From a virus, in the IMG/VR virus record IMGVR_UViG_3300030107_000395, positions 1 through 26,094 of that record: a stretch of DNA of 26,094 nucleotides; one strand, 5' to 3'. This document shows positions 5,821 to 26,094 of the stretch, piece after piece; positions within the stretch are counted from its first letter, which is position 1, and each line of letters begins with the position of its first letter. Under the pieces are notes generated by a model. That model saw only the letters and a program-made list of their open reading frames with translations. It was not told where the DNA came from and made no database searches. A program made the position numbers and the translations under genes.

Positions 5821-7617
5821 ATGGCTATTACAATAAGAGATGATTTACCTGAATTTTTAGTTGAGTGGTTAAAAGACAGAGGGGCTGTTGCTGTTGTAGA
5901 TGATGAGACAGGAAAACCCGGAGTTGTTCCCTTAGGTAAAAAACGTAAACGTAAAGCCTCAGGTGAAGATACTTATACCAGTGCTGATATGGACGTAGAT
6001 CCAGCAGCAGATATACAATTTGATCCTAGTTTTTTAAATAACATTATAGGTAATATTACTGGATTATTTAATACTTCTAAAGGTAATACAGAATTATCAG
6101 ATATTGAAGAACTTTCTGGTGTTTATGGTCTAAACTCTTATGATAAAGAATTTACTTATCCTAATGTCAATGAGTTTGTAAATGCTCCTGTAACAAGAGG
6201 GGAACTATATGCTGCTGATGTTCTTAATAAAAAAGGTATTGATGAAGAAGCATCTAAACAATTACAAAAAGACACTGCTAAAGGAATTTCTTATGAAGGA
6301 ATACCTAAAGAACGAACTGAAAGATTTACAGGAAGTCAAAATTTTACAGGAAATCAGAGGTATAAAGGTGGAGAAAAATTTAGAGGGACTAAAGAGTTTG
6401 TAGGTACTGAAAGATTTTTTCCAAATTTCGTTCCGGGTCCAATAGGTCCACAATCCGCTTCTTCTAATAAACAAGAAAGATCATTTTTTGGATTTGGTCC
6501 CTATAAAAATATTACAAGCAGGAAGTTATTTAGCTTAGATCCTGTAAATGCTGGTGCTGCTTTATCTCCTCTTAATCCTTCAAGATCAAGATGGGAAGTA
6601 GATGAATCAGGTTTCACACGAAACTCTGTACCTGCTCCGTTACCTTCTTTTGGTGGTATGTTTTCTAAAGATAGAGATTTCAGCTATGGTCCCTCTTTAC
6701 CAGCATCCGTAAGCCAAGCACTACCCGGTAGAAAACCTACGAACCCAGTACAAGAGTATATAGAAACTAACCAAGCACAAGCAAAAGATGGATGGAAGTT
6801 TAATGATAATACAGGTTTAGATAGGGCTGGAAGATCTTTTCAAAACAGGCTTATAAGGGGAGGAACAGATTTTCTTTATGATCCTAATTTAACTGGGGGA
6901 GAAAAGATGGGATTTGGTTTAAGTAAATTAGCACCCTCTATACTAAGTGCTGCTGGTGTAGCTGGTGCTCCGCTTATAGGACTCTTTGGAGCTATTGGTC
7001 AAGCAATGGGTGGCTACCATCCTCTTAACCAAGCATCAAATATATTTATGGACCCCTTTGTAGGAACTTCTAGGTGGGAGTCTCCAGAAGCCGGAGGAGG
7101 AGGTGCTCAGACAGGCATCTTAAATCTTGATAATCAAATAGAAGATTTAGCTCAGTCTGATCCCGGTAGATATATAGAGACACCTTACGGATATATAACT
7201 GCTGGCGAGTTAAACAATGCTATTAAGTCAGGTGCTTTACATTTCGGAGCAGACGAATTTCCAACACAAGTAACTACCGAAGACATGGGCTTTAGACAGG
7301 ATAAACCTTTTATGCTTCAAAATGTAGGAGATTCTAATATTACAAATCAACAAGCAGTACAGGATCTTGCCAATACCAATGCAGGAGCATTTTTAAACAG
7401 AGCAGCAGAATTATTGCCTGATGCTGGATATAACGAAATTAGAGATGTAGCAGAAGGGATGTCACAGGTAGCACAAATTACTGATAATATGTCTAATATC
7501 TATGATTTTGATTTTGACTATGGCGATATTGGCATAGACGAAGATTTTGGTGGTGCTGTTGATGATGGTATGGGAATGTATGATGATTTTGGTTTAGATG
7601 ACGAAGGAGTTTACTGA
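5821..7617 (+). CDS. Large internal virion protein of unknown function with hexapeptide repeats
   Basis: 598 residues, not matched to a known family. A Lys/Arg patch (KKRKRK, about 40-45) follows the N-terminal domain. Residues 167-202 form six consecutive six-residue units of the form xx(F/Y)xG(S/N/G/T), such as ERFTGS, QNFTGN, QRYKGG, EKFRGT and KEFVGT, with the last (ERFFPN) diverged. Residues about 365-400 are hydrophobic and Gly-rich (APSILSAAGVAGAPLIGLFGAIG), possibly membrane-active. The last 45 residues are strongly acidic with many Asp and aromatic residues. It lies between two probable ejection proteins and its stop overlaps the next start (TGATG). A virion role is inferred from position. 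Confidence 0.6.
   Translation: MAITIRDDLPEFLVEWLKDRGAVAVVDDETGKPGVVPLGKKRKRKASGEDTYTSADMDVDPAADIQFDPSFLNNIIGNITGLFNTSKGNTELSDIEELSGVYGLNSYDKEFTYPNVNEFVNAPVTRGELYAADVLNKKGIDEEASKQLQKDTAKGISYEGIPKERTERFTGSQNFTGNQRYKGGEKFRGTKEFVGTERFFPNFVPGPIGPQSASSNKQERSFFGFGPYKNITSRKLFSLDPVNAGAALSPLNPSRSRWEVDESGFTRNSVPAPLPSFGGMFSKDRDFSYGPSLPASVSQALPGRKPTNPVQEYIETNQAQAKDGWKFNDNTGLDRAGRSFQNRLIRGGTDFLYDPNLTGGEKMGFGLSKLAPSILSAAGVAGAPLIGLFGAIGQAMGGYHPLNQASNIFMDPFVGTSRWESPEAGGGGAQTGILNLDNQIEDLAQSDPGRYIETPYGYITAGELNNAIKSGALHFGADEFPTQVTTEDMGFRQDKPFMLQNVGDSNITNQQAVQDLANTNAGAFLNRAAELLPDAGYNEIRDVAEGMSQVAQITDNMSNIYDFDFDYGDIGIDEDFGGAVDDGMGMYDDFGLDDEGVY
6319..6426 (+). repeat. Tandem six-residue protein repeat within the 598-residue virion protein
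   Basis: This part of the coding sequence encodes six back-to-back six-residue units with an aromatic residue at position 3 and Gly at position 5 in five of the six. The DNA copies have diverged, so the repeat is visible in protein rather than as exact DNA repetition. That suggests an old expansion kept by selection on structure. Confidence 0.75.
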
Positions 7618-11516: not shown

Positions 11517-11966
11517 ATGAATGTTTCACTAGAAGGTGATTGGAAAATCTTTAGTACACCATCGTTATCTAATTTTGATAGATGGTCAGTAGGTTATAGT
11601 AATCTATTTGATACACTTAGGGCAATACCTGAGAAGAGTCCAGCCACCTACCCCCCACACAACATCATTAAGAAATCTGATAATGAGTTCTCTATAGAAT
11701 TAGCACTAGCTGGATTTAAAAAAGAGGATGTGGAAGTAGTTCTTAAGGAAGATAGACTTACTGTTAGCGGTGATAATTCTTCTAAGGAAAACGAAAAGGA
11801 AACCGTTCTTTATAAAGGGGTTGCAAGCAGATCCTTTAATAAAACTTTTTACTTAGCCGAAACAATAGAGGTCAGTGATGCAGTTTTTAAAGATGGTATG
11901 GTCATTATCAATCTTAAGCAAAATATTCCTGAAAATAAAAAACCTAAGGTTATTCCTCTTAAGTAA
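11517..11966 (+). CDS. Small heat shock protein, Hsp20 / alpha-crystallin family
   Basis: 149 residues, a usual length. An N-terminal arm (1-45) is followed by the alpha-crystallin domain at about 46-138, seen in IIKKSDNEFSIELALAGFKK and the conserved AxFxDGMVIINL near 122-133. The C-terminal tail ends in VIPLK, which contains an I-x-L form of the I-x-I/V anchor that links subunits. The family acts as an ATP-independent holdase that keeps unfolding proteins soluble, and Hsp20 genes are known from marine phages, especially cyanophages. It has its own promoter (11430-11458) and a GGAG ribosome binding site. It may assist virion assembly or stressed host proteins; the client is unknown. Confidence 0.92.
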   Translation: MNVSLEGDWKIFSTPSLSNFDRWSVGYSNLFDTLRAIPEKSPATYPPHNIIKKSDNEFSIELALAGFKKEDVEVVLKEDRLTVSGDNSSKENEKETVLYKGVASRSFNKTFYLAETIEVSDAVFKDGMVIINLKQNIPENKKPKVIPLK

Positions 11967-16976: not shown

Positions 16977-18707
16977 TTAGTGGGTTTCAGCCCACGTTGA
17001 ACCTACTTTAAACTCCCCATCTAAGGGGCATCTTAAATCAAACTTAAGTCCTGCTGATTTAATACACTCCACAGCTAACCAACCAAACTTATCTGCTTGA
17101 TCTTCTCTAACCTCTGCCTGAAATTCATCGTGTATATTACCTACAAATTTAAAGTCTATACTATGTAGTGTACCATACTGATTTAACAGTGTCAAAGATT
17201 TCTTCATAATAATTGCTCCGGCAGACTGAAGCAGTGTATTCAGTGCTGAGTGTGCTGACCTTATGACAAGTCTTCTTCCGTCAAGACCTCTGAGATGTCC
17301 TCTTGCACAGGCTCTCTCAACTCTTTCTCGTAAATTTCTAAGAGAAGGGATGTTGCTGAAAAAAAGCTCTTTAAGCTTTGCTCCATCTCTTTTACTGCCC
17401 CCAATAATACTTCCGATCTTTGCATCTCCCGCACCGTAGATGAGAGCATAGATAAATGTCTTAGCAGTGTCTCTTGTTGCGATTCCTGAAGCTTTTTGAT
17501 TATAAGTATGGATGTCTCCGTTGATGATTTCATTTGTATACTCCCCATCGTTCATATAGTGTGCTAACATTCTAAGTTCCAGACCTGAGGCATCTATACC
17601 TACTAATCTATAACCATCTGGAACACTCCAACATGATCTACAGTCTTCACCATAGGGCGAGTAGCCAGCAGGAACTTGAGCCATATTAGGATTGCTATGG
17701 GTCATCCTGCCAGTTACTGCACCTATCGTGTTAACATTACCGTGAACTCTACCGTCCTCCCCTACTTCTTCAAGCCATGAGTCTACCTGTGCCATGCGCT
17801 TTTGCAGTAGCAGATACTCTGCAATAAGTTTCGCTTCAGGTATGTCCTCCACCTTTCTGAGCACAGCTTCGTCCACAATAATGTTACCCTTCTCAGTGTA
17901 AGTCTCTGGTTCCCATCCGTAAAACTGTAGGTGTCTAGCTATCTGCTGTCTAGAACCTAAGTTAAACTCCGGCCAGTCTATACGGCTTAGAGTACCGCAT
18001 ACATTAGTCCAACTATCACCAAGAAACTTAAGCCCCACGTTGCTAAGTCTACCGTCCTTGTTGTACTTAGGCGTGATCTCCTTAACAAAAACAGGTAACG
18101 CTTTAAACCTTTGGTGTACCTCATCCTCCACCTCCATCTTACGTTGCTTAAGTCGTGCCAACAGATCATAACACTTGTCTTGATCCAGTAGCCATCCATC
18201 CTGTATCTGCTTAGTCACTACAGTCTGAACCTCGTGTTCCAGTGCTACACTGGTGTCTCCAAATTTCTCCAGTCTCTCGCTAAGAGAGTCATAGACCTTG
18301 TGAGTTAGGTCACAGTCTTGTCTACAGTATTCTATCATCTCAGGCGTAACCTTACTCCAGTCATCATGCTCTCCCTTAGGAAACTTTAATCTCTCTCCCC
18401 ATGCCTTAAGAGAGTGGCCTCCCTCTAGCTGAGGATTGTATAACCTAGATAGTATTAACGTGTCTACAATCTTATGGTTGCTGAATGACAGCCCTAAAAA
18501 CTTCTCTAGAATAGGGGAGTCGAACCCAATAATATTGTGACCAAGTATAATATTATATCCATTTAAAAACTCCTGTATCTCATCGGTGTCAAAAGGGTAT
18601 ACAAATTCCTTCTTGTTCTGTGTCTGAAGGTCTTTCGTTCCGATCATCCACACTTGGCTCACCGGAAAATCGTTTGTTTCTATATCTACTATAAGCTTCT
18701 TTGTCAT
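16977..18707 (-). CDS. DNA polymerase, family A (T7 type) with 3'-5' exonuclease
   Basis: 576 residues; T7 DNA polymerase has 704. The proofreading domain has D8/E10 (DIET), N58-D63 (NIIGFD) and Y127xxxD131. The polymerase has motif A IDASGLELR (D372), motif B RDTAKTFIY (K416, Y420) and motif C HDE (H526-E528), all close to T7. Y420 is at the position of E. coli F762, as in T7. The segment where T7 holds the thioredoxin-binding loop is about 30 residues shorter and not similar, so host thioredoxin may not be its clamp. The ATG lies inside the HNH gene; DIET near the N-terminus supports this start. Confidence 0.95.
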   Translation of the reverse strand: MTKKLIVDIETNDFPVSQVWMIGTKDLQTQNKKEFVYPFDTDEIQEFLNGYNIILGHNIIGFDSPILEKFLGLSFSNHKIVDTLILSRLYNPQLEGGHSLKAWGERLKFPKGEHDDWSKVTPEMIEYCRQDCDLTHKVYDSLSERLEKFGDTSVALEHEVQTVVTKQIQDGWLLDQDKCYDLLARLKQRKMEVEDEVHQRFKALPVFVKEITPKYNKDGRLSNVGLKFLGDSWTNVCGTLSRIDWPEFNLGSRQQIARHLQFYGWEPETYTEKGNIIVDEAVLRKVEDIPEAKLIAEYLLLQKRMAQVDSWLEEVGEDGRVHGNVNTIGAVTGRMTHSNPNMAQVPAGYSPYGEDCRSCWSVPDGYRLVGIDASGLELRMLAHYMNDGEYTNEIINGDIHTYNQKASGIATRDTAKTFIYALIYGAGDAKIGSIIGGSKRDGAKLKELFFSNIPSLRNLRERVERACARGHLRGLDGRRLVIRSAHSALNTLLQSAGAIIMKKSLTLLNQYGTLHSIDFKFVGNIHDEFQAEVREDQADKFGWLAVECIKSAGLKFDLRCPLDGEFKVGSTWAETH

Positions 18708-19008
18708 TTAATAAAGTCTCACCTCTGTTTAAAGCTTTGTGTTCTAGAGCGTGACAGTTCATACATAGGATAGCACACTTATCTGCTTCCTCCAAGGCTT
18801 TATTTAAATTTTTATTGCCCCAACTCCTTACGGATAAATTAAATTCTTTTTCTTTAGGGTCAAGGTGGTGGAAACAAAGTATATCTGAAGGCCAGTGTTG
18901 CTCACATAACTGACACTTTCCTCCAGTCTTATTTAAAATGTAAGCTTCTCTTCTTGCTCTCACTTTAGTATGATACTTAATATCATATGGGTTCTTAGAA
19001 TTCTTCAT
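18589..19008 (-). CDS. HNH endonuclease overlapping helicase and polymerase genes
   Basis: 139 residues. The zinc site CxxC at 32/35 and CxxC at 82/85, with His 47-48 and His 86, forms the HNH fold (KCQLCEQ, CFHHLDP, CMNCHALEH). HNH proteins nick or cut DNA and are often mobile, though some help in packaging. The start overlaps the helicase stop by 14 bases. The last 39 residues lie over the first 119 bases of polymerase in another frame, beyond the HNH core. This looks like a free-standing endonuclease inserted at the junction and then extended into polymerase. Confidence 0.8.
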   Translation of the reverse strand: MKNSKNPYDIKYHTKVRARREAYILNKTGGKCQLCEQHWPSDILCFHHLDPKEKEFNLSVRSWGNKNLNKALEEADKCAILCMNCHALEHKALNRGETLLNDKEAYSRYRNKRFSGEPSVDDRNERPSDTEQEGICIPF

Positions 19009-20632
19009 CTTCTACCGCCCTAACTTGAGGTTCAACACCAGCCACCATACGGCCTGTGCTCTCTTCATAGTACATCCAGCCAGCAGATCCAGTCCTGCCA
19101 GTCCTACGGCACTTCACTAGCTGTACCTTAGTTGAGTTCCTAGTGTACTCATCATCAGAAAGCTTGTCCCTACTGAGAAGTATAGTATTAAAGGCTATCT
19201 GATTAATGGAACCAGACCCCTTAAGATCATACTCGTTGACATCATGAGGATCTTTACCTGCTGGTTTCCTCATGTGGGATATGATGATAATGGATACCCC
19301 TGTCTCCTTAGCTAACTTAAGGCAACGATCCATGAACTCATCTATCTGTCCGTTCTCATTAGACCGCACACAGGCATGGAGAGGATCTAGTATTATAACA
19401 TCACAGTCCTCACCTACTGCCATCCACCGCATCTTAGAGAACAGGGCATCAACATCAGAGAACCCTAGATGCTTTAGTATGTGGACATTAGACTTGTCCT
19501 TAAAGTCATCATAGTATTCCCTGTATAGAGAGTTGTCTCTATTCTTGTGGGGAACCAGACTTATGTTCTCGCCACTGTGAAGGGATACTATCTTCTCTAT
19601 AGTCTCACCTAAGTCTGACTCAAGAAACACAGCACCTATCTTCTTAGAGGACTGAAGCACCATGTCGTATAGCAGATTGAATACCATAGTGGTCTTACCT
19701 ATAGACGTAAGCGCACCTATCACAGTAACCTCACCAGAAGCCAGACCACCATTCATCATGGCATTAAGAGAGCCATAGGCATTAGGCAGAGGGATGATCT
19801 CCTCTGTACCCCTAGTCACAAAGGCATCCCAACACTCCTCATCACCGAAGGACACCACGCCTACTGGACGATATGGCCTAGCATCCCACCAGCACTTGAC
19901 GAACTCTTGTATCTTCTTCTCCTTAAGCATATCCCCTGCATCCTTCATAGGAAGGTCAACAATCTTTGCTTTGTTGTGAGAGAACAGGGGAAGTATACTA
20001 TCTACTGCTTTCTTACCAGCTTCATCCTGATCGAAACAGATAACAATATTCTCAAAAGTTTCAAGCCACTCTAGGTTGGCCTTAATATCTTTAGACGCAC
20101 CTGCTGATCCTGTCTTAATAGATACTACAGGCCACTTGCCGTCAAACATTTCTGCCACTGCCATCGCATCCAGTTCACCCTCAGTGATGGTCACGTACTT
20201 ACCACCCTCACGCCATAGATGCTGACCAAACAAGCACGACTCCTCAAAGTTACCTGTAGTATGAAAACCTTTTGACGCTACATCCCTAACCTTAGATGCA
20301 ATAACGTTACCATTCTTATCAGAGTATGGGTAGTGATGTTTGCTTATGGAATTATCCTTATTGTACTCAACTGTAACTCCAAATTTAGAAGTTATCGCAG
20401 AGGAAATACGTCTGTCTCTTATAGCACCGCTAGTTCCTGACATTTCAAACTCCGTTTTTAAATCAGACAGTGTAATAGTCTGCCCATCTGAAAATTCTGT
20501 GTAAGTACAGGCGAAACAATACTTATGACCATCATCATACAAGGCCAGATTGTCTCCCTTAGTATCTCTACCCTCTTCCCTACACTTAGGGCATGGGATT
20601 TTTTTAACTACCTTTGACTTTTCTTTTAACAT
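18995..20632 (-). CDS. Primase-helicase (T7 gp4-like)
   Basis: 545 residues. The primase zinc finger has Cys 14, 17, 39 and 42 (CPKC, CFAC). The TOPRIM domain follows with E151 (ITEGELD) and D201/D203 (CFDQDEAG). The RecA-like helicase has Walker A at 307-314 (ALTSIGKT), Walker B at 411-416 (DVIILD), the ISHMRKP sensor near H453, and basic residues at 509-513. It should unwind DNA and make primers at the fork. The last nine residues, VRAVEDEEF, are acidic and end in Phe, like the T7 helicase tail that docks on polymerase. The gene follows a terminator-like hairpin. Confidence 0.95.
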   Translation of the reverse strand: MLKEKSKVVKKIPCPKCREEGRDTKGDNLALYDDGHKYCFACTYTEFSDGQTITLSDLKTEFEMSGTSGAIRDRRISSAITSKFGVTVEYNKDNSISKHHYPYSDKNGNVIASKVRDVASKGFHTTGNFEESCLFGQHLWREGGKYVTITEGELDAMAVAEMFDGKWPVVSIKTGSAGASKDIKANLEWLETFENIVICFDQDEAGKKAVDSILPLFSHNKAKIVDLPMKDAGDMLKEKKIQEFVKCWWDARPYRPVGVVSFGDEECWDAFVTRGTEEIIPLPNAYGSLNAMMNGGLASGEVTVIGALTSIGKTTMVFNLLYDMVLQSSKKIGAVFLESDLGETIEKIVSLHSGENISLVPHKNRDNSLYREYYDDFKDKSNVHILKHLGFSDVDALFSKMRWMAVGEDCDVIILDPLHACVRSNENGQIDEFMDRCLKLAKETGVSIIIISHMRKPAGKDPHDVNEYDLKGSGSINQIAFNTILLSRDKLSDDEYTRNSTKVQLVKCRRTGRTGSAGWMYYEESTGRMVAGVEPQVRAVEDEEF

Positions 20633-20645
20633 AAAGATACCTCTG

Positions 20646-20684
20646 AAAAAATAGGGGACTCAGAATAATTCCCAAGCCCCCTAT
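20646..20684 (-). terminator. Factor-independent terminator between SSB and primase-helicase
   Basis: On the - strand ATAGGGG (20684-20678) can pair with CCCCTAT (20657-20651), followed at once by a run of T to 20646. The loop is about 20 bases with a possible small inner stem (GAAT/ATTC). The pattern of GC stem plus T tract supports partial or full termination after the SSB gene. It lies 13 bases before the helicase start. Confidence 0.65.
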
Positions 20685-20697
20685 ACACTTTCAACAA

Positions 20698-21075
20698 CTA
20701 GAAGTCCTCATCATCAATAGATGAGTCGTCATGCTGTGCCATCTCAAGAACTTTAATCTTCTTGAAATAAGGCGCAACACCATGAGTCGGGTGAGGTTTA
20801 CCCGGTTCCCACAGTACCCTGACTTTGGAACCATAGGGAATATACTTATCAATAGTATCACCCTCAGTATCCATCACAGGAAAGTTAGGAAACTTAGTCA
20901 CAAACTTACGCTGTGGCTGGTTCTTATATTCCTTAACAATAATACCAGCATCAGAGAGCTTGTCAGCTTCCTCCTGTTCTAGGGTAAGAACAATGGAATA
21001 CTTACCAGTGTCCTGACCATTGAACTTTTCTGTCTCAGCCAAATTGCTGAACGCTACTACACCTTCTGTTATCAT
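20698..21075 (-). CDS. Single-stranded DNA-binding protein (T7 gp2.5-like)
   Basis: 125 residues; T7 gp2.5 has 232. The body has the mixed-charge beta pattern of an OB fold (EGVVAFSNLAETEKFNGQDTG, GSKVRVLWEPG, FKKIKVLEM). The C-terminal tail DDSSIDDEDF is acidic and ends in Phe, the signature by which gp2.5 contacts polymerase and helicase. It likely coats single strands during replication and recombination. A promoter lies just upstream (21108-21136) and a terminator just downstream. The ribosome binding site CGGAGG is adjacent to a 12-base palindrome. Call by tail, size and position next to the helicase. Confidence 0.75.
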   Translation of the reverse strand: MITEGVVAFSNLAETEKFNGQDTGKYSIVLTLEQEEADKLSDAGIIVKEYKNQPQRKFVTKFPNFPVMDTEGDTIDKYIPYGSKVRVLWEPGKPHPTHGVAPYFKKIKVLEMAQHDDSSIDDEDF

Positions 21076-21084
21076 ACGAACCTC

Positions 21085-21096
21085 CGTTAATTAACG
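21085..21096. repeat. 12-base palindrome CGTTAATTAACG upstream of SSB
   Basis: A perfect palindrome lies between the predicted start of transcription and the SSB ribosome binding site. On its upstream side GACTA and TAGTC (21095-21111 region) form a further short inverted repeat. Such placement would suit an operator or an RNA stem that affects access to the binding site. Confidence 0.5.
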
Positions 21097-21107
21097 ACTA
21101 CTACTAT

Positions 21108-21136
21108 AGTCTAGTTTAAATTAAATATCCTGTCAA
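21108..21136 (-). promoter_or_regulatory. Sigma-70-like promoter upstream of SSB
   Basis: On the - strand TTGACA (21136-21131) is followed after 17 bases by TAGACT (21113-21108). The -35 box is perfect and the -10 box matches four of six. It overlaps the end of the preceding gene and would start near 21101, feeding SSB. The first ten bases, TTGACAGGAT, are the same as in the promoter at 23849-23877. Confidence 0.55.
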
Positions 21137-21344
21137 CAACTTTATTCACAGGATACTTTTTGTAATAGTGATTGTAGAAAACACCACGCTCATCCTCAGT
21201 TAGTTTATCTACTAACTCCTCAGCAGATTTCTTAGTGCTAAATACACCCACTACATTACTGTATTCATAGCCATCATGCTGGAATACAATAAACACTTCG
21301 TCTATGCCAGACTTCATTAGGTTTAAATCTAATTGCTCTTTCAC
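21111..21344 (-). CDS. Hypothetical protein (DUF7336-like?)
   Basis: 77 residues from a GTG start, chosen because AGGAGG lies 7 bases upstream; an in-frame ATG at 21380 would lie upstream of that site and inside the previous gene. The core EVFIVFQHDGYEYSNVVGVFSTKKSAEELVDKL has the short beta-beta-helix pattern I associate with small proteins such as DUF7336. The function is unknown. Its stop lies inside the SSB promoter. Confidence 0.5.
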   Translation of the reverse strand: MKEQLDLNLMKSGIDEVFIVFQHDGYEYSNVVGVFSTKKSAEELVDKLTEDERGVFYNHYYKKYPVNKVVDRIFNLN

Positions 21345-21355
21345 TACACTACCTC

Positions 21356-21544
21356 CTATGCTACTACGGCTATGCCCCATGACCTGTCTGGGATCTCAAT
21401 TAAATTACCATGCTTATCATAGACCAGTAGTGGTTGAACAGATATAGACATAGTCCTACTCCCCTCACTACTGCCACCTATCCTGTTCTCCCAGTATACT
21501 GAAGTAGGAGCTACTGGGTATAAGGATGCTATCGGCTCAACCAT
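21356..21544 (-). CDS. Hypothetical protein
   Basis: 62 residues, not recognised. It has a Pro/Ser-rich first half and a short hydrophobic beta-like segment (MSISVQPLLVYDKHGNLIEI). The ATG overlaps the previous stop by 8 bases, which suggests coupled translation. No motif points to a function. Confidence 0.45.
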   Translation of the reverse strand: MVEPIASLYPVAPTSVYWENRIGGSSEGSRTMSISVQPLLVYDKHGNLIEIPDRSWGIAVVA

Positions 21545-21674
21545 ATTCTGGCTCCTCCCATACCCTCAGTCGAATATAAAATCCACCTTCTTCACTGTCC
21601 CAGTTATAGTCAAAGTTCTTACCATAATGTTCTTGCAGAACTCCAATCAAGTCGTGTTCAAATTCTTCAGGCAT
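21537..21674 (-). CDS. Hypothetical small acidic protein
   Basis: 45 residues, starting MPEEFEHDL. I chose this ATG over an upstream one at 21740 because AGGAGGGAAGAAG stands directly before it and the upstream part overlaps the neighbouring gene. It is acidic and aromatic (FDYNWDSEEGGFYIRLRVWEE). The function is unknown; its neighbour at 21691 has similar composition. Confidence 0.5.
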   Translation of the reverse strand: MPEEFEHDLIGVLQEHYGKNFDYNWDSEEGGFYIRLRVWEEPEYG

Positions 21675-21690
21675 CTTCTTCCCTCCTAGA

Positions 21691-21912
21691 TTAATAATAA
21701 AGTCTACCCCCAGATTCTCTCTCAGATACAGGCAGATCATCAGGGACTATAGACACAGCCCATGCGAACTCACCTTCATTGCTCTCATAGTCCTCTATGA
21801 ATTGTAACTTAACTCTTAACTCATGCTTCTCTAATTTCTTATTGATTAGAGCAACACCTTGTTCAAAGCCATCACTCTTATGGCTATCATTAAACACTAC
21901 CAAGTTACTCAT
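21691..21912 (-). CDS. Hypothetical protein
   Basis: 73 residues, not recognised. It has a helical part (FEQGVALINKKLEKHELRV) and an acidic beta part (DYESNEGEFAWAVSIVPDD). The last shares the E-G-x-F/Y-x-hydrophobic pattern with the downstream 45-residue protein, so the two may be distant relatives. The ribosome binding site AGGAGG lies 6 bases before the ATG. Confidence 0.5.
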   Translation of the reverse strand: MSNLVVFNDSHKSDGFEQGVALINKKLEKHELRVKLQFIEDYESNEGEFAWAVSIVPDDLPVSERESGGRLYY

Positions 21913-21924
21913 CCTGTCCCTCCT

Positions 21925-22287
21925 TTACTTTAAAGTGTTACCTGACTTTACGTTTCTCCATTTCTCAGCTATAAAGAGTTCAACTTCAATCTCTTCAAGT
22001 TTCTCTGCTAGATCAGTCTGCTTGTTATCATACAAATCAAATAGCACCTCCTGTAATTTTGTTTGTACAGGATTCTCACTATGGTGTGTATTTGAACTGT
22101 ACTCTAGTTCCTCCATTTCTATCAAGTCATCAGGATCAATTCCACTAGCCCAGTAGCCAGCATCTATGTTATTAGAGTAGAATACTTTTGTTGTACCATC
22201 CTCGTTTTGTAATGGCTCGTCAGTTTCTGCATCAATCTTGTAGAATGTCATGTCCCATACACCTACAGTATATTCTGGATTACTCAT
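21925..22287 (-). CDS. Hypothetical acidic protein
   Basis: 120 residues, not recognised. It begins with a beta-like part (YTVGVWDMTFYKIDAETDEPL) and continues with an acidic helical half (about 75-105). The start has AAGGAG and overlaps the stop of the zinc-ribbon gene by 8 bases, so translation is likely coupled. Net charge is negative. Confidence 0.55.
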   Translation of the reverse strand: MSNPEYTVGVWDMTFYKIDAETDEPLQNEDGTTKVFYSNNIDAGYWASGIDPDDLIEMEELEYSSNTHHSENPVQTKLQEVLFDLYDNKQTDLAEKLEEIEVELFIAEKWRNVKSGNTLK

Positions 22288-22435
22288 CTTCTGTCTCCTT
22301 TGGATAATAAACGTCTACTATACTCCCACAATTAGGACAACTCAGGTTAGTGACTATACTATAGTTCTCATCTTCCTCATCTATATCGTGATCACCTCCC
22401 CAGATTAATCTGGTATGACAGTGCCAGCAGTTCAT
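22280..22435 (-). CDS. 51-residue zinc-ribbon protein
   Basis: Starts MNCWHCHTRLIWGGDHD and has two CxxC pairs, C3/C6 and C33/C36 (LSCPNC), spaced for one zinc ion. The middle is acidic. Small proteins opening with NCWHC and WGGDHD recur in marine phages, so the frame is real in my view. Its ATG overlaps the stop of the upstream membrane peptide (ATGA), with no separate strong ribosome binding site. It may bind a protein or nucleic acid; no function is known. Confidence 0.72.
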   Translation of the reverse strand: MNCWHCHTRLIWGGDHDIDEEDENYSIVTNLSCPNCGSIVDVYYPKETEDE

Positions 22436-22521
22436 CCTGCAATACTAACTACAAAAAATACAAAACCTATTATAACTGCTACACCTGTAAATAATATGAC
22501 CCAATCCTTAAATGGTGGCAT
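22432..22521 (-). CDS. 29-residue one-helix membrane peptide
   Basis: Starts MPPFKDWVILFTGVAV, followed by a fully hydrophobic stretch over residues 8-28. The ribosome binding site AGGAGGG is 5 bases before the ATG. The stop overlaps the start of the zinc-ribbon gene (ATGA), which suggests the two are made in fixed ratio. A single membrane helix is expected; the role is unknown. Confidence 0.65.
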   Translation of the reverse strand: MPPFKDWVILFTGVAVIIGFVFFVVSIAG

Positions 22522-22522
22522 T

Positions 22523-22672
22523 TTACCCTCCTAACGCCAGTTTTGCTAAAATTCGATCCATTTTAAGAGCCACTGAGTAGCCATCTCTATATGCTCTGGG
22601 GGGTAAGTACCCTAGAAAAAGACGGCTCTCAGTGAGGCTTAAAATTATGCTACTGATTCCAACTCCTTCCAC
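22523..22672 (-). CDS. Possible 49-residue reading frame over the inverted repeat
   Basis: A frame open from a GTG inside the end of the DUF932 gene to a TAA just before the membrane peptide encodes 49 residues ending GYSVALKMDRILAKLALGG. The second half looks protein-like. There is no good ribosome binding site for the GTG, so the true start is unclear and the frame may be chance. It covers the long inverted repeat at 22561-22644, which could instead be a noncoding structure. Confidence 0.25.
   Translation of the reverse strand: MEGVGISSIILSLTESRLFLGYLPPRAYRDGYSVALKMDRILAKLALGG
22561..22644. repeat. Long imperfect inverted repeat
   Basis: On the + strand TTTTAAG, AGC, CACTGAG, T, AGCC faces GGCT, CTCAGTG, AGG, CTTAAAA. 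This gives stems of 7, 7 and 4 base pairs separated by a 3x3 internal loop and a one-base bulge. The enclosed 40 bases contain a further small stem (GGGT/ACCC at 22601-22612). No T run follows on either strand, so it does not look like a terminator. It lies directly after the DUF932 stop. Confidence 0.6.
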
Positions 22673-23568
22673 TCAGGTGATGTAATCATCTTCTTAACCT
22701 TGTCCTCTCTGGACACCCTGACATTGTGGAACTTACCCTTGCACCCATGAGAGTGAGAAGACCAGTCAGTGCCAGCTTGGTAGGCAGTCCATAGTGTACC
22801 AGACTGCCATGAGTAGTCCTTACTGTCGCTAGACCTCTTGTGTAGGTGGTCGTTCTCTTGGTCAAAAATACGCATAAGGTTAGACAACATAACTTTATTG
22901 GCTACCTTTTTACCTGTGATATTGTCGGTGCGTTTAGCGAGTGTCTTAGTGAACAGGTCTATAGCCTGATCCCTAGTAATCCTAGTGTCGAACCAGTTAC
23001 GCATCTGCTCCAGACCCTCACCAGATATATATTCTCCAGCAGTCCTGACCTTGTTGGCAAACAAGTCTACATTAAAATGTTTGGTGTGTCTGCCGTAGAC
23101 ATACGCCAGCTTACTGCCGTTGACCAGAGTGTTAAAGCACACTGAACGCCAGTATCCTATCATGCCGTTGTTAGCCCATGTCCTGTTGTGGGAAGTACGA
23201 AATACAAACTCAGGAATTATATATCCCCTGTCTCCTACTACCTCTGTCTCATGGGCTGGAAACTTTGCTCTTAATTCTAACTGAGCACCATTGGCATAGG
23301 TGTTAGTAGTGAACTCAGCATCAGTAGTATCTAGGCCAGACTTAACTAGTGCCTGTTCTACTCCGTCTACTATTTCTGCATACTGAACAGGGAAGTAGTC
23401 ATCAGAGACTATGCCTAGTGGTTCCTTAGTATCCTTACGTCTGATACCTACGCCCACACTGCTAGGAACTGTTTCCTCTTTATGATAACCTAGATCCTCA
23501 GTCCATTGGTTCACCAGTGGGAACTTCTCGACTTTAAAATTAATCTTGTCGTGGTCAAAGAATAACAT
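22645..23568 (-). CDS. DUF932 / phage-plasmid-like protein
   Basis: 307 residues. GVGIRRKDTKEPLGIVSDDYFPVQYAEIVD near 40-70 and VVGDRGYIIPEFVFRTSHNRTWANNGMIGYWRSVCFNTLV near 109-150 are the recognisable core of the DUF932 family found in phages and plasmids. The C-terminal third is charged and helical with a His/Cys cluster (SSHSHGCKGKFH). The biochemical role of DUF932 is unknown. It is encoded right after the 61-residue basic protein, two bases apart, and shares its promoter at 23849-23877. It is by far the largest gene in this early cluster. Confidence 0.78.
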   Translation of the reverse strand: MLFFDHDKINFKVEKFPLVNQWTEDLGYHKEETVPSSVGVGIRRKDTKEPLGIVSDDYFPVQYAEIVDGVEQALVKSGLDTTDAEFTTNTYANGAQLELRAKFPAHETEVVGDRGYIIPEFVFRTSHNRTWANNGMIGYWRSVCFNTLVNGSKLAYVYGRHTKHFNVDLFANKVRTAGEYISGEGLEQMRNWFDTRITRDQAIDLFTKTLAKRTDNITGKKVANKVMLSNLMRIFDQENDHLHKRSSDSKDYSWQSGTLWTAYQAGTDWSSHSHGCKGKFHNVRVSREDKVKKMITSPEWKELESVA

Positions 23569-23569
23569 A

Positions 23570-23755
23570 CTACACCTCGTCTTGTTTGTTGTTGAAATAT
23601 TCTGTTATCTCCTGTAGGGCTACCTTGTCCAACAGGTCGTTACGTCTAGACCTAAAAACCTTTGGTTTACAGACCATATCCATACCCTTCTTGATGGGGT
23701 TTCTACTTAAGAAATTTTTTCTATTCCTTAACTTAGACTTTTGTCTCTTTAGCAC
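23570..23755 (-). CDS. 61-residue basic protein, possible DNA-binding regulator
   Basis: Starts from GTG with AAGGAGG five bases upstream, so the start is well supported. The first 40 residues are very basic (KRQKSKLRNRKNFLSRNP, later KVFRSRRN), and the rest is a helical stretch (DLLDKVALQEITEYF) with an acidic end. Nothing identifies a family. A basic protein first in the operon behind an array of palindromes could regulate that region, but this is an inference. It precedes DUF932. Confidence 0.6.
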   Translation of the reverse strand: MLKRQKSKLRNRKNFLSRNPIKKGMDMVCKPKVFRSRRNDLLDKVALQEITEYFNNKQDEV

Positions 23756-23764
23756 AACTACCTC

Positions 23765-23782
23765 CTTAGGTATCTTAGGTAT
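23765..23782. repeat. Tandem repeat of 9 bases (CTTAGGTAT twice)
   Basis: Two exact copies of CTTAGGTAT lie back to back directly before the ribosome binding site of the 61-residue gene (on the - strand ATACCTAAG twice, the second running into AAGGAGG). This may be a binding site array or control of translation. It touches the left arm of the 14-base inverted repeat. Confidence 0.7.
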
Positions 23783-23850
23783 ACTTAAGTAGTCTTAAGT
23801 TTTTAACTTAAAGAATAACATATAATGTTATCTCCTGACTACTTAAGTAT
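23781..23850. repeat. Inverted repeat enclosing two perfect hairpins (three-way junction geometry)
   Basis: The 14-base arms ATACTTAAGTAGTC (23781-23794) and GACTACTTAAGTAT (23837-23850) are perfect reverse complements. Between them are two hairpins with 7-base stems and 3-base loops: TTAAGTT/AACTTAA at 23795-23811 and ATAACAT/ATGTTAT at 23815-23831. Each arm also contains the palindrome ACTTAAGT. The right arm overlaps the -10 box of the promoter, so protein binding or cruciform formation there would block or modulate transcription. Confidence 0.8.
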
Positions 23851-23877
23851 TCTAATGAGTAAAAATAATCCTGTCAA
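23849..23877 (-). promoter_or_regulatory. Strong sigma-70 promoter for the 61-residue protein and DUF932
   Basis: On the - strand TTGACA (23877-23872) is perfect and TAGAAT (23854-23849) matches five of six, with 17 bases between. It lies just after the stop of the zinc-ribbon gene at 23879. Predicted transcription begins near 23842, inside the right arm of the inverted repeat, leaving a leader of nearly 90 bases that holds both hairpins and the 9-base tandem repeat. Confidence 0.72.
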
Positions 23878-23878
23878 G

Positions 23879-24076
23879 TTATTTATTTTCATCGTTGCTA
23901 AAGTAGTCATCAGCAACCATCTTTAACCCGACTACATTCTGCATCAACTCGAACTCTGTAGTCACCTCATACACACTAGCCATACAATTTCTACAAGTGT
24001 CCAGAAAAGATCCGTGTCTATCTTTCTTAGACAACTCACCTTGCTCAAGTCTTTTGTCGCAAACTTTACAACGCAT
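23879..24076 (-). CDS. 65-residue zinc-ribbon protein
   Basis: CxxC pairs at C3/C6 (CKVC) and C28/C31 (CRNC) fit one zinc ion; between them is a charged strand region. The second half is helical (FELMQNVVGLKMVADDYF). The start is the ATG with AGGAGGG upstream. The gene ends two bases before the strong promoter. A role in protein or nucleic-acid binding is plausible but no family was recognised. Confidence 0.65.
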   Translation of the reverse strand: MRCKVCDKRLEQGELSKKDRHGSFLDTCRNCMASVYEVTTEFELMQNVVGLKMVADDYFSNDENK

Positions 24077-24137
24077 CCTTATACCCTCCTGTTCTCTATT
24101 AAAAAGTCCGTAAGTAATGGTGGTGGTGTCGGTAGTA

Positions 24138-24323
24138 TTAGGTTCCTAGTAACTGTCTCAACTCAGCAAGTTTATGAGCCTTATACAACTCAATATTACC
24201 TTTACCTTCTACTTCATGCATCCAGTGGGCGTACTCTTTAGCACCCTCTTCACTGAACCCATGACCCAGAGCCTCCTCATACCTGTCTTCAAGAAAACTC
24301 ATAACTACATTAGGTAAACTCAT
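24138..24323 (-). CDS. Hypothetical 61-residue helical protein
   Basis: Starts MSLPNVVMSFLEDRYEEAL. I chose this ATG because it overlaps the stop of the upstream membrane peptide (ATGA) and follows GGAG. The in-frame ATG at 24377 would lie over the peptide gene. The protein is helical and charged (EEGAKEYAHWMHEVEG); no family was recognised. Confidence 0.55.
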   Translation of the reverse strand: MSLPNVVMSFLEDRYEEALGHGFSEEGAKEYAHWMHEVEGKGNIELYKAHKLAELRQLLGT

Positions 24324-24415
24324 AGCGCAATTACTCCATGTAAAATTAACACAACAGACACCATGCCCATTAGCCAACAGGATAGTGCCACTAATTCTAT
24401 TATAAATCTGGACAT
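24320..24415 (-). CDS. 31-residue one-helix membrane peptide
   Basis: Starts MSRFIIELVALSCWLMGMVS, with a hydrophobic stretch from about residue 4 to 31. It begins one base after the previous stop (24417) with TAGGG nearby, and its stop overlaps the next start (ATGA). Tight overlaps on both sides support translation. Function is unknown. Confidence 0.58.
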   Translation of the reverse strand: MSRFIIELVALSCWLMGMVSVVLILHGVIAL

Positions 24416-24416
24416 A

Positions 24417-24620
24417 CTACCCTACCATTTCCTCATAAGTATTACATCCAGTAATGCCAAAAGCATCAGCGAATCTACTCACTAGTCTATCATCATCTAG
24501 CTTATTCAACTCTCTCTTATATGCTACCTTAGCAATCGAGAGAATTTCCTTGTCAGACATACTAGCAAAGTCTCTTTCTACTATGTCGTTCAACATGGTT
24601 ATTCTTGCATTGTATTTCAT
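24417..24620 (-). CDS. Hypothetical 67-residue protein
   Basis: 67 residues, not recognised. A helical pattern runs through the sequence (ERDFASMSDKEILSIAKVAYKRELNKL), ending in an acidic part (NTYEEMVG). It is preceded by a 17-base sequence that also stands before the gene at 25711 and by a promoter candidate at 24654-24683. No functional motif is visible. Confidence 0.55.
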   Translation of the reverse strand: MKYNARITMLNDIVERDFASMSDKEILSIAKVAYKRELNKLDDDRLVSRFADAFGITGCNTYEEMVG

Positions 24621-24627
24621 TAGTTTT

Positions 24628-24644
24628 TACTCCTATGTTGTTTA
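24628..24644. repeat. Direct repeat copy 1 (TACTCCTATGTTGTTTA)
   Basis: This 17-base sequence is identical at 25719-25735. On the - strand it reads TAAACAACATAGGAGTA and contains the ribosome binding site AGGAG of the gene that follows. The two copies share the leader rather than only the binding site. Confidence 0.7.
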
Positions 24645-24653
24645 ACTTGTTTA

Positions 24654-24683
24654 TTTATAGCAAAATAAAACAGCCTTTTCCAA
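24654..24683 (-). promoter_or_regulatory. Candidate sigma-70 promoter for the 24417-24620 gene cluster
   Basis: On the - strand TTGGAA (24683-24678) and TATAAA (24659-24654) are 18 bases apart, each matching consensus at four or five positions. It would start transcription about 30 bases before the first gene of the cluster and lies after the terminator at 24802-24840, which is where a new promoter is expected. Confidence 0.45.
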
Positions 24684-24739
24684 TGATACTTTTGCATACC
24701 TGATATGCACTACACGCACAACTAACCTACATTTTTTGC

Positions 24740-24768
24740 TTGACACTACTAATTGTGTTGCATATATG
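24740..24768 (+). promoter_or_regulatory. Possible opposing (+ strand) promoter
   Basis: TTGACA (24740-24745) and TATATG (24763-24768) are 17 bases apart on the + strand. No + strand gene follows; a transcript would run into the hairpin at 24809-24840 and be antisense to the small membrane peptide. The -35 is perfect but the -10 is weaker, so chance is possible. The region also has inverted elements TGCATA/TATGCA (24693-24709). Confidence 0.3.
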
Positions 24769-24801
24769 TCACACATTGCTGCAATTTTCTAGGATAAATA
24801 G

Positions 24802-24840
24802 AAAAAAAATAGGCCAGCTACTTAACTATAGCCAGCCTAT
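24802..24840 (-). terminator. Factor-independent terminator after the 199-residue and 26-residue genes
   Basis: On the - strand ATAGGC (24840-24835) pairs with GCCTAT (24814-24809), and inside it GCTA pairs with TAGC (24832-24829 with 24820-24817), with a 2x2 mismatch between. A run of eight T (24809-24802) follows. The stem and T tract fit a classical terminator. It closes the transcription unit that begins beyond the window edge. Confidence 0.72.
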
Positions 24841-24845
24841 CAAGT

Positions 24846-24926
24846 TTAACTATTAAGAGTCGAGAGTATTAAAGCAAAAGTAAACAAAAAGAAAACCAAA
24901 TTAAATATAAAAATATAACTATTCAT
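24846..24926 (-). CDS. 26-residue one-helix membrane peptide
   Basis: Starts MNSYIFIFNLVFFLFTFAL and is almost wholly hydrophobic with a Ser/Asn end. TAGGGG, which includes the stop of the upstream gene, lies 6 bases before the ATG. It is the last gene before the terminator. The DNA is very AT-rich, which favours Phe/Ile codons by chance, so support rests on the binding site and position. Confidence 0.5.
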   Translation of the reverse strand: MNSYIFIFNLVFFLFTFALILSTLNS

Positions 24927-24935
24927 TTTAAACCC

Positions 24936-25535
24936 CTAAGTTATGTTGTGAATTCTTCTCCATGTTACCCATGTAATCGCCTGAATTTCAAAAGCTTTTA
25001 ATGGTCTCCCATTTAACCTAACTTTTTTACCAGCCTGTACATAGGCGTTAGAAATAATGATATACTCTTTTTTACCCACGTTAGTTTTATCGGACGTTAG
25101 ACCATGCCTCTCCCCATAGTAAATATTTTTTGCGTGTCCGTCTACTGTACACGTATCGTCACCCATAATATTTCTATAGAATGAGGTTATTTTCTGACCA
25201 TTCAATATCTTAATTACGCCACTATGGTCAGGCATTTTTTCAAGTATAGACCAAGCTTTAATTTTCATAGCGTTATAGGTGGATACTTTAACACTATCTA
25301 TACCATCACCATTTAAAAACGCAACGATTAAATCCCTAGCGTTTATAATATTCCTATCCCATTTATTATTCGGCGATAGTGCGGATATAACACCAGTTAC
25401 AATATGACAAGGTACGTCCAGATCAATTGAGATTCTGGTACAGTCTGATAATGCTTTAGCATACCAGACTACACCATTTTTCTTCTCTTCCGGCGTGGAT
25501 AACCGATAGATTTTTACAATATTTTCTACTGACAT
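24936..25535 (-). CDS. Putative DNA glycosylase-like (helix-hairpin-helix) phage protein
   Basis: 199 residues. The pattern ISALSPNNKWDRNIINARDLI (about 50-70), STYNAMKIKAWSIL, ILNGQKITSFYRNIMGD, TVDGHAKNI (about 129-137) and QAITWVTWRRIH at the end recurs in a family of phage proteins that I relate to helix-hairpin-helix base-excision glycosylases. The Asp in TVDGHA would be the candidate catalytic residue. Substrate and activity are unknown; it could act on modified or damaged bases. The ATG shares a base with the stop of the 58-residue gene (TAATG), so the two are probably coupled. Confidence 0.55.
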   Translation of the reverse strand: MSVENIVKIYRLSTPEEKKNGVVWYAKALSDCTRISIDLDVPCHIVTGVISALSPNNKWDRNIINARDLIVAFLNGDGIDSVKVSTYNAMKIKAWSILEKMPDHSGVIKILNGQKITSFYRNIMGDDTCTVDGHAKNIYYGERHGLTSDKTNVGKKEYIIISNAYVQAGKKVRLNGRPLKAFEIQAITWVTWRRIHNIT

Positions 25536-25711
25536 TATGTCCAGCGTTTAACTTGAGCGTGCTTATCTATCGCATCATAAAACCTATTATAATCAAAACG
25601 TGGGTTTTCTTGAGCAAAGAATTGCCCAAATTCCTCAATCGTTTTTTCTGGAACATTAGTTGTTCCTAATATCTCCGCTACTCTTTCAAAGTGTTTTCTA
25701 CTTAGTGCCAT
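25535..25711 (-). CDS. 58-residue small phage protein
   Basis: Starts MALSRKHFERVAEILG and ends with FFAQENPRFDYNRFYDAI, a C-terminal NPRFDxxRF pattern seen in small phage proteins. It looks helical. AGGAG lies 9 bases before the ATG within the repeated 17-base leader. Its stop overlaps the start of the glycosylase-like gene. The function is unknown. Confidence 0.65.
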   Translation of the reverse strand: MALSRKHFERVAEILGTTNVPEKTIEEFGQFFAQENPRFDYNRFYDAIDKHAQVKRWT

Positions 25712-25718
25712 TTTAAAA

Positions 25719-25735
25719 TACTCCTATGTTGTTTA
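25719..25735. repeat. Direct repeat copy 2 (TACTCCTATGTTGTTTA)
   Basis: Identical to 24628-24644. It holds the ribosome binding site for the 58-residue gene. The matching leaders suggest shared control of translation or copying of a small gene cassette with its leader. Confidence 0.7.
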
Positions 25736-25740
25736 TCTAC

Positions 25741-25790
25741 CCCTTAAGGGTCGTACTAGATTTAACTAGTCACGACCCTGTTGGGTTAGG
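25741..25790. repeat. Hairpin with competing palindromes
   Basis: AGGGTCGT and ACTAG (25747-25759) pair with CTAGT and ACGACCCT (25766-25779), giving 13 base pairs with one bulged C. The left arm overlaps the palindrome CCCTTAAGGG (25741-25750), and the right arm overlaps ACCC/GGGT (25775-25786), so at most one or two of the three stems can form at once. No T tract follows, so it is not a standard terminator. It lies in the leader of the 58-residue gene. Confidence 0.6.
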
Positions 25791-25799
25791 TAGGATTAT

Positions 25800-26078
25800 C
25801 TAGATTATATTGGTTGGGATTGCTTCCCAATTATACAATTCCCTATTTTCTTTAGGTATTCTCTTTTCAATACCTATGGTGAAACAGATAAAGTGTACTT
25901 GTTTAAATGTATCACCGCTAGAAAACCCAAATAAAACCTTATAGGATTGCTTACTAGTTTTAATCCTATGTAGTTTCAAGCCCTTCCGTTTTCTAAATAG
26001 TCCGTTTACTAAAGTCTTACCTTTGCGACTAATAGAAAAAATTCTGGTTCCGTTGCTTTTTCTAGATTGTATTTTCAT
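25800..26078 (-). CDS. Hypothetical basic protein
   Basis: 92 residues from the ATG with GGAG 6 bases upstream; a TTG four codons earlier is also in frame but less likely. The first 50 residues are Lys/Arg-rich (MKIQSRKSNGTRIFSISRKG, LFRKRKGLKLHRIKTSKQ). The rest is beta-like with one Cys, followed by a polar tail. No family was recognised. It could bind nucleic acid. Its upstream context lies outside the window. Confidence 0.5.
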   Translation of the reverse strand: MKIQSRKSNGTRIFSISRKGKTLVNGLFRKRKGLKLHRIKTSKQSYKVLFGFSSGDTFKQVHFICFTIGIEKRIPKENRELYNWEAIPTNII

Positions 26079-26094
26079 TCTTAACTCCAATAGT

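Follow-up and report, generated by a model that had tools for sequence, protein, structure and literature searches.

In phage lambda, nutL and nutR are two copies of a site placed at two operons and acting with the N protein, while OL and OR carry repeated palindromic operator sites at the two main promoters. To our knowledge, RNA elements that reprogramme RNA polymerase independently of proteins are known from few phages. According to excerpts of one report (PMC9378689), the putL and putR sites of phage HK022 are RNAs of ~70 nt located near operon 5' ends, two per genome, one of them directly after its promoter and the other further downstream.

Here, we describe repeats that, as judged by sequence comparison, are part of a conserved leader following the promoters of early and packaging operons, and that look like an undescribed control element; the literature searched contained nothing on it. 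The leader, of ~60 nt, begins at the predicted +1 of a near-consensus sigma-70 promoter and consists of two arms, forming a 5' helix (P1) that encloses a CUUUAA/UUAAAG motif, followed by ACYTAAG boxes. Like put, it lies early in the transcript and occurs twice per genome in relatives; however, put is made of two successive stem-loops, whereas P1 is nested around a core, and the excerpts on put describe no box arrays of the kind found here. Moreover, put acts through RNA polymerase to suppress pausing and termination, an effect that for the present leader is a conjecture. With lambda nut it shares its location at two operons and, in many early operons, a small basic protein encoded first. It differs in that no boxA/boxB pair was recognised (CUUUAA resembles part of boxA by eye only, the preceding bases vary among lineages, and nothing like boxB was seen) and in that the basic protein is not beside every copy. 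Its repeated palindromic boxes at two main promoters recall OL/OR, but its arms covary with a G-U bias and no candidate repressor was identified.

In the LUZ24-like Pseudomonas phages (Bruynoghevirus, e.g., phage TL), TTGACA-17-TATAAT precedes CCTTAAGG and a leader with a short hairpin, and each genome has two such sites. This arrangement resembles ours in the succession of promoter, box-type sequence and hairpin, and in its two copies, but it is shorter and lacks a match to our covariance model R1; it may be convergent with the present element. In two of these phages (L184 and L185, position 1501), the second CCTTAAGG promoter-leader lies ~13 kb from the first; the first ~25 nt are common to both copies, and a short hairpin then precedes an ATG.

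The window and its genetic setting

The window, i.e., the whole stretch of DNA analysed, is a 26.1-kb virus record (IMG/VR IMGVR_UViG_3300030107_000395) and a partial contig. It encodes a primase-helicase, a family-A DNA polymerase, whose closest relatives are those of the Pelagibacter phages HTVC103P, HTVC104P and HTVC115P (~51% identity), and a ribonucleotide reductase; no phage RNA polymerase gene was noticed among the ORFs searched in this partial contig. Replication genes are on the minus strand and structural genes on the plus strand, and GC skew flips near 12 kb, at the gene-strand boundary, with no change at the leader. Two other genes were noticed in passing. The 139-aa ORF at 18589-19008 has HNH-endonuclease-like Cys/His motifs and overlaps the 5' end of the DNA polymerase gene, an arrangement similar to that at 5619-6074 in the relative L007. 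The 149-aa protein encoded at 11517-11966 resembles Hsp20-type small heat-shock proteins, and a gene annotated as Hsp20 is similarly placed in HTVC103P.

The promoter lies directly 3' of the stop codon of a gene for a CxxC protein, and the leader is followed by genes for a 61-residue basic protein and a DUF932 protein, in that order. The basic protein has no Pfam or PHROG match; its predicted structure (pTM 0.38) gave no PDB match in a fold search. Among known isolates, neither the leader region, as DNA, nor the DUF932, basic or SSB proteins found a match. The features of the region are as follows.

23879-24076, minus strand: gene for a 65-aa CxxC-pair protein, immediately 5' of the promoter and kept in relatives
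23849-23877, minus strand: sigma-70 promoter, with -35 TTGACA at 23877-23872, a 17-nt spacer and -10 TAGAAT at 23854-23849
23842-23848, minus strand: left ACTTAAG box, between the -10 hexamer and the predicted start (~23842-23843)
23784-23843, minus strand: leader element matching R1 with 62.6 bits, the window being among the training sequences
23837-23843, minus strand: P1 5' arm AGUAGUC, pairing with 23788-23794; the arms covary
23788-23794, minus strand: P1 3' arm GACUACU, pairing with 23837-23843; the arms covary
23815-23831, minus strand: inner hairpin a, AUAACAU-UAU-AUGUUAU, in the window clade only (not seen in L006 or L163)
23795-23811, minus strand: inner hairpin b, UUAAGUU-AAA-AACUUAA, overlapping the conserved CUUUAA motif; A-C mismatch in L008
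23794-23800, 23784-23790, 23774-23780 and 23765-23771, minus strand: ACYTAAG boxes, spaced 10, 10 and 9 nt
23760-23767, minus strand: Shine-Dalgarno AAGGAGGT, assigned from its sequence and overlapping the last ACYTAAG box
23570-23755, minus strand: gene for the 61-aa basic protein, GTG start, first gene 3' of the leader; relatives aligned

Promoter and repeats

A sequence-only reading of this DNA had described a strong minus-strand sigma-70 promoter within nested repeats, and these components are indeed present where it had placed them. The promoter (23877-23849) matches the consensus at 11 of 12 positions and is the best promoter-like site within 19000-26094, where such sites as a class are in slight excess (25 vs 18.9 by chance); the transcript start at ~23842-23843 is predicted from the spacing to the -10 hexamer. 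The arms of the 14-nt perfect inverted repeat (23781-23794 and 23837-23850) are separated by 42 nt; the two 7-bp hairpins, each with a 3-nt loop, occupy 23815-23831 and 23795-23811, and a 9-nt unit is repeated in tandem at 23765-23782. The window has a single 14-nt inverted repeat whose gap does not exceed 100 nt, and 6 of 300 dinucleotide shuffles have one as well; five same-strand ACYTAAG boxes within 90 nt were reached in none of 300 shuffles (maximum 3).

Folded as DNA, the region 23760-23870 has a z-score of -5.4. The predicted transcript 23843-23784, folded as RNA, is more stable than all 200 shuffles (z = -3.5). For a longer RNA reaching the start codon the z-score is only -1.75, so the window by itself would not settle the matter. 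Since the left CTTAAG box is mostly upstream of the predicted start, no more than ~7-8 of the 14 bp of the repeat could pair in the RNA. Scanning promoters generically for 5'-terminal stems has no discriminating power, as ~10% of random positions have at least 8 pairs. A putative leader peptide, MLFFKLKT (ATG at ~23826), was rejected, as L006 and L163 have no counterpart. About 13 nt (TATGTTATTCTTT, minus strand) are common to the leader (23814-23826) and the DUF932 gene start (~23557-23569); this TATGTTATTCTTT match is not exact in L008 and may be due to chance.

Conservation and distribution of the leader

Relatives with the same genes keep the repeats, whose absence from them would have spoken against the sequence-only reading. 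In two close relatives, the leader is almost unchanged and the -35 and -10 hexamers are kept, while the promoter spacer varies; a T-to-C substitution in a close relative (L002/L008; AACTTAAG to AACCTAAG in L008) breaks the second inner hairpin and leaves the ACYTAAG box consensus intact. The more distant L006 and L007, found via the repeat itself, have the same flanking genes as the window; their stem measures 18 bp and their interior differs. In L007, the leader is the sole part of the neighbourhood still alignable as DNA. L163, found by protein only, shows the full leader plan, the 10-nt unit being present four times in tandem, once as a variant. The three-way junction formed by the two inner hairpins, proposed from the window, was rejected as the conserved form, not having been seen outside the window clade; in most lineages, P1 encloses a single interior hairpin. 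Fold z-scores are low in most lineages, down to -7.

The pattern TTGACA-17-TANNAT-(0-3)-CTTAAG-(35-65)-CTTAAG was found in 64 viral contigs, nearly all with the same leader plan, compared with 7 for a GTTAAC control hexamer in the same pattern. In 257 Gb of cellular genomes there were 9 scattered matches, none of which matches the covariance model. Because the pattern itself selects for CTTAAG, relatives were also fetched by protein. The leader thus defined is carried by many phages that are uncultured and mostly marine. The genes 3' of it fall into four groups, namely, the basic-protein family, an SSB-primase-polymerase operon, a small protein with terminase, and those of the LUZ24-like Pseudomonas phages. 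In the SSB-operon leaders, P1 is weak or absent and the left box often departs from this form: in the 150 nt upstream, 17 of 78 retain C[TC]TAAG no more than 4 nt away from a -10-like hexamer. Most of them have UUAAAG and, on the 3' side, a hairpin whose stem varies (GATAC/GTATC, GATCC/GGATC, GCTAC/GTAGC). A search with R1 gave no match at E<=1 in the DNA-polymerase relatives HTVC103P, Slicky01, CRP-143, HTVC109P, SIO1 and S45-C18. In Rfam, 12 loci gave no match at the gathering score, and the window region, with E up to 10, gave sub-threshold matches to unrelated families only.

A second copy at the terminase operon

The covariance model R1, built from alignment A11 (alignment A6 was too divergent for searching), detects additional copies in related phages, located before small-terminase-like genes (E ~5e-6 to 0.04), and none in control loci or six distant phages. 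Two copies per genome are present in L008, L091, L080, L045, L010 and others. The late copies are preceded by TTGAC[AT]-17-TATAAT and start ~15-35 nt downstream of the start predicted for this terminase-operon promoter, with boxes near +31, +41, +101 and +111 (+16, +76, +86 and +96 in L008). As L008 is close to the window, a second copy is expected beyond the right end of the latter, ~1 kb past 26094 to judge by L008, in front of terminase genes. In L006, a similar promoter with boxes precedes a small-terminase-like gene, and the R1 match there is poor. Upstream of this late promoter (7040-7265), ACTTAGGTCT recurs in tandem every 10 nt, along with a longer repeat, CTATGTAGTTACTTAGGACACCTATGTTGACCTATGTAACTAC; both are CTTAAG-box-like. 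In L011, L014, L024 and L051, the terminase-operon leader has two successive box-hairpin modules, and a similar leader is found on the opposite strand.

Covariation of the arms

Alignment across related phages, which the sequence-only reading had proposed as a check, reveals paired substitutions in the P1 arms on the transcribed side. With boxes excluded, the variable arm segments pair better with their cognate than with non-cognate arms, none of 20,000 permutations reaching the observed value when the best box was allowed for both alike. For the inner (transcribed) side of the arms in 17 lineages, none of 50,000 permutations did so, the partner box being picked by hand where several exist. 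The outer (promoter-side) flanks, of which the left one is constrained by the -10 box, gave p = 0.05 in the 17 lineages and 0.21 in the 11 basic-protein lineages. In A11 (12 sequences), the P1-plus-core structure, drawn by hand from some of them, has 82% paired cells and covariation above 500 of 500 shuffles, which drops when the structure is slid; RNAalifold alone returned no structure for A11. An extended core helix was rejected, as the flanks of CUUUAA/UUAAAG do not covary (p = 0.94). P1 cells contain 12 G-U pairs vs 2 A-C mismatches, a bias that fits a helix in the transcribed strand; together, the transcribed-side covariation and the G-U excess argue for an RNA helix. ACYTAAG boxes are 9-10 bp apart in eight lineages, and TTAA spacing peaks at 10 nt with no overall 10-10.5 period.

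Proposed function and alternatives

The leader is very likely a functional element; it probably folds, and probably also acts, as RNA. A nascent-RNA site is suggested by the distribution over two operons, the position 3' of promoters, the unrelated first genes and the covariation on the RNA side. We propose that host RNA polymerase would start at the sigma-70 promoter near 23842, and that the first ~60 nt of the transcript would fold as a hairpin, in which a variable but complementary P1 surrounds CUUUAA...UUAAAG, with CUUAAG boxes following at ~10-nt spacing. With its second copy ~15-35 nt past the terminase (late) promoter in related phages, the leader may be a nascent-RNA control site marking both main transcripts. 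Its effect would most likely concern RNA polymerase processivity, by put- or nut-like antitermination or anti-polarity. Taken as a whole, this reading of a cis-acting leader that marks both main transcripts and likely alters processivity is a tentative one. What the sequences show directly is the repeats, with their conservation and covariation, and the presence at two operons; the site of transcription initiation, folding in vivo, any factor that binds and antitermination are inferred. The weak or absent P1 of SSB-operon leaders, the lack of covariation in the flanks of CUUUAA/UUAAAG and the RNAalifold outcome on A11 speak against this reading. Antitermination in particular is conceivable yet doubtful as the mechanism. 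Predicted intrinsic terminators were rejected as support for it, since only the window and L050 have them within the early operon (L059 has two ~9-10 kb downstream), which leaves antitermination with little independent support. The strong terminator-like hairpin of the window (20684-20651, minus strand; 15 pairs, then TTTTTT) lies in the early operon between the SSB-like and primase-helicase genes, 3.2 kb downstream of the leader. It is rather unlikely that the leader represents a new class of nascent-RNA elements enabling processive transcription by host RNA polymerase at early and late operons across a large group of uncultured podovirus-like phages. Recurring at both main operons in many environmental phages, it would be a testable candidate for how such phages steer host transcription; even as an operator or mRNA stabiliser, it would be a conserved regulatory site absent from Rfam and now searchable by model.

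The sequence-only reading had offered either an operator array or a leader RNA switch. Covariation, G-U bias and conservation favour the leader RNA, while the operator array still has in its favour the 9-10-bp box spacing seen in many lineages. In that alternative, which we consider unlikely, a phage regulator would bind the palindromic CTTAAG boxes on one helix face, as at lambda OL/OR, and jointly control early and late promoters. The regular 10-nt spacing is not accounted for by an RNA helix and is the best argument for a DNA-binding regulator; moreover, box pairs flank the late element on both sides, the left box of the window overlaps the -10/+1 region, and the L008 change breaks a hairpin yet preserves the box consensus. 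However, the arms covary on the transcribed side and not clearly on the promoter side, P1 is biased towards G-U, the left box is frequently missing from SSB-operon leaders, and early and late copies lie at different distances from the promoter. That the 61-residue protein autoregulates its operon, as also suggested in the sequence-only reading, finds no support as a general rule, because the element also precedes SSB-primase and terminase operons starting with other genes.

A hairpin for RNase III processing or translational control, comparable to the site in the lambda N leader, is a further, improbable alternative, in which cleavage or folding would set expression of the first genes. The length of the duplex in certain lineages (18 bp in L006) and the constant location in the 5' leader, ahead of the ribosome binding site, would suit such a role, but P1 is short in the window clade and the first genes are unrelated. 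Even less probable is a 5'-terminal stem shielding early mRNA from 5'-end-dependent decay (RppH/RNase E). In the basic-protein lineages the predicted 5' end is paired (mean 0.61-0.97 for leader nt 1-8, with predicted starts), and 5'-terminal stem-loops are cited as mRNA stabilisers in the reference list of PMC3997798. Late copies, however, begin past the predicted start, so that this explanation fits early leaders only, and shielding makes a conserved core or box array unnecessary. A replication origin with iteron-like repeats beside the promoter, also raised from the sequence, is hardly credible despite the tandem ~10-bp units (four in L163, one variant) near an AT-rich promoter upstream of replication genes, as the skew flips near 12 kb instead of at the leader, the arms covary on the RNA side, and related phages have copies at two separate operons.
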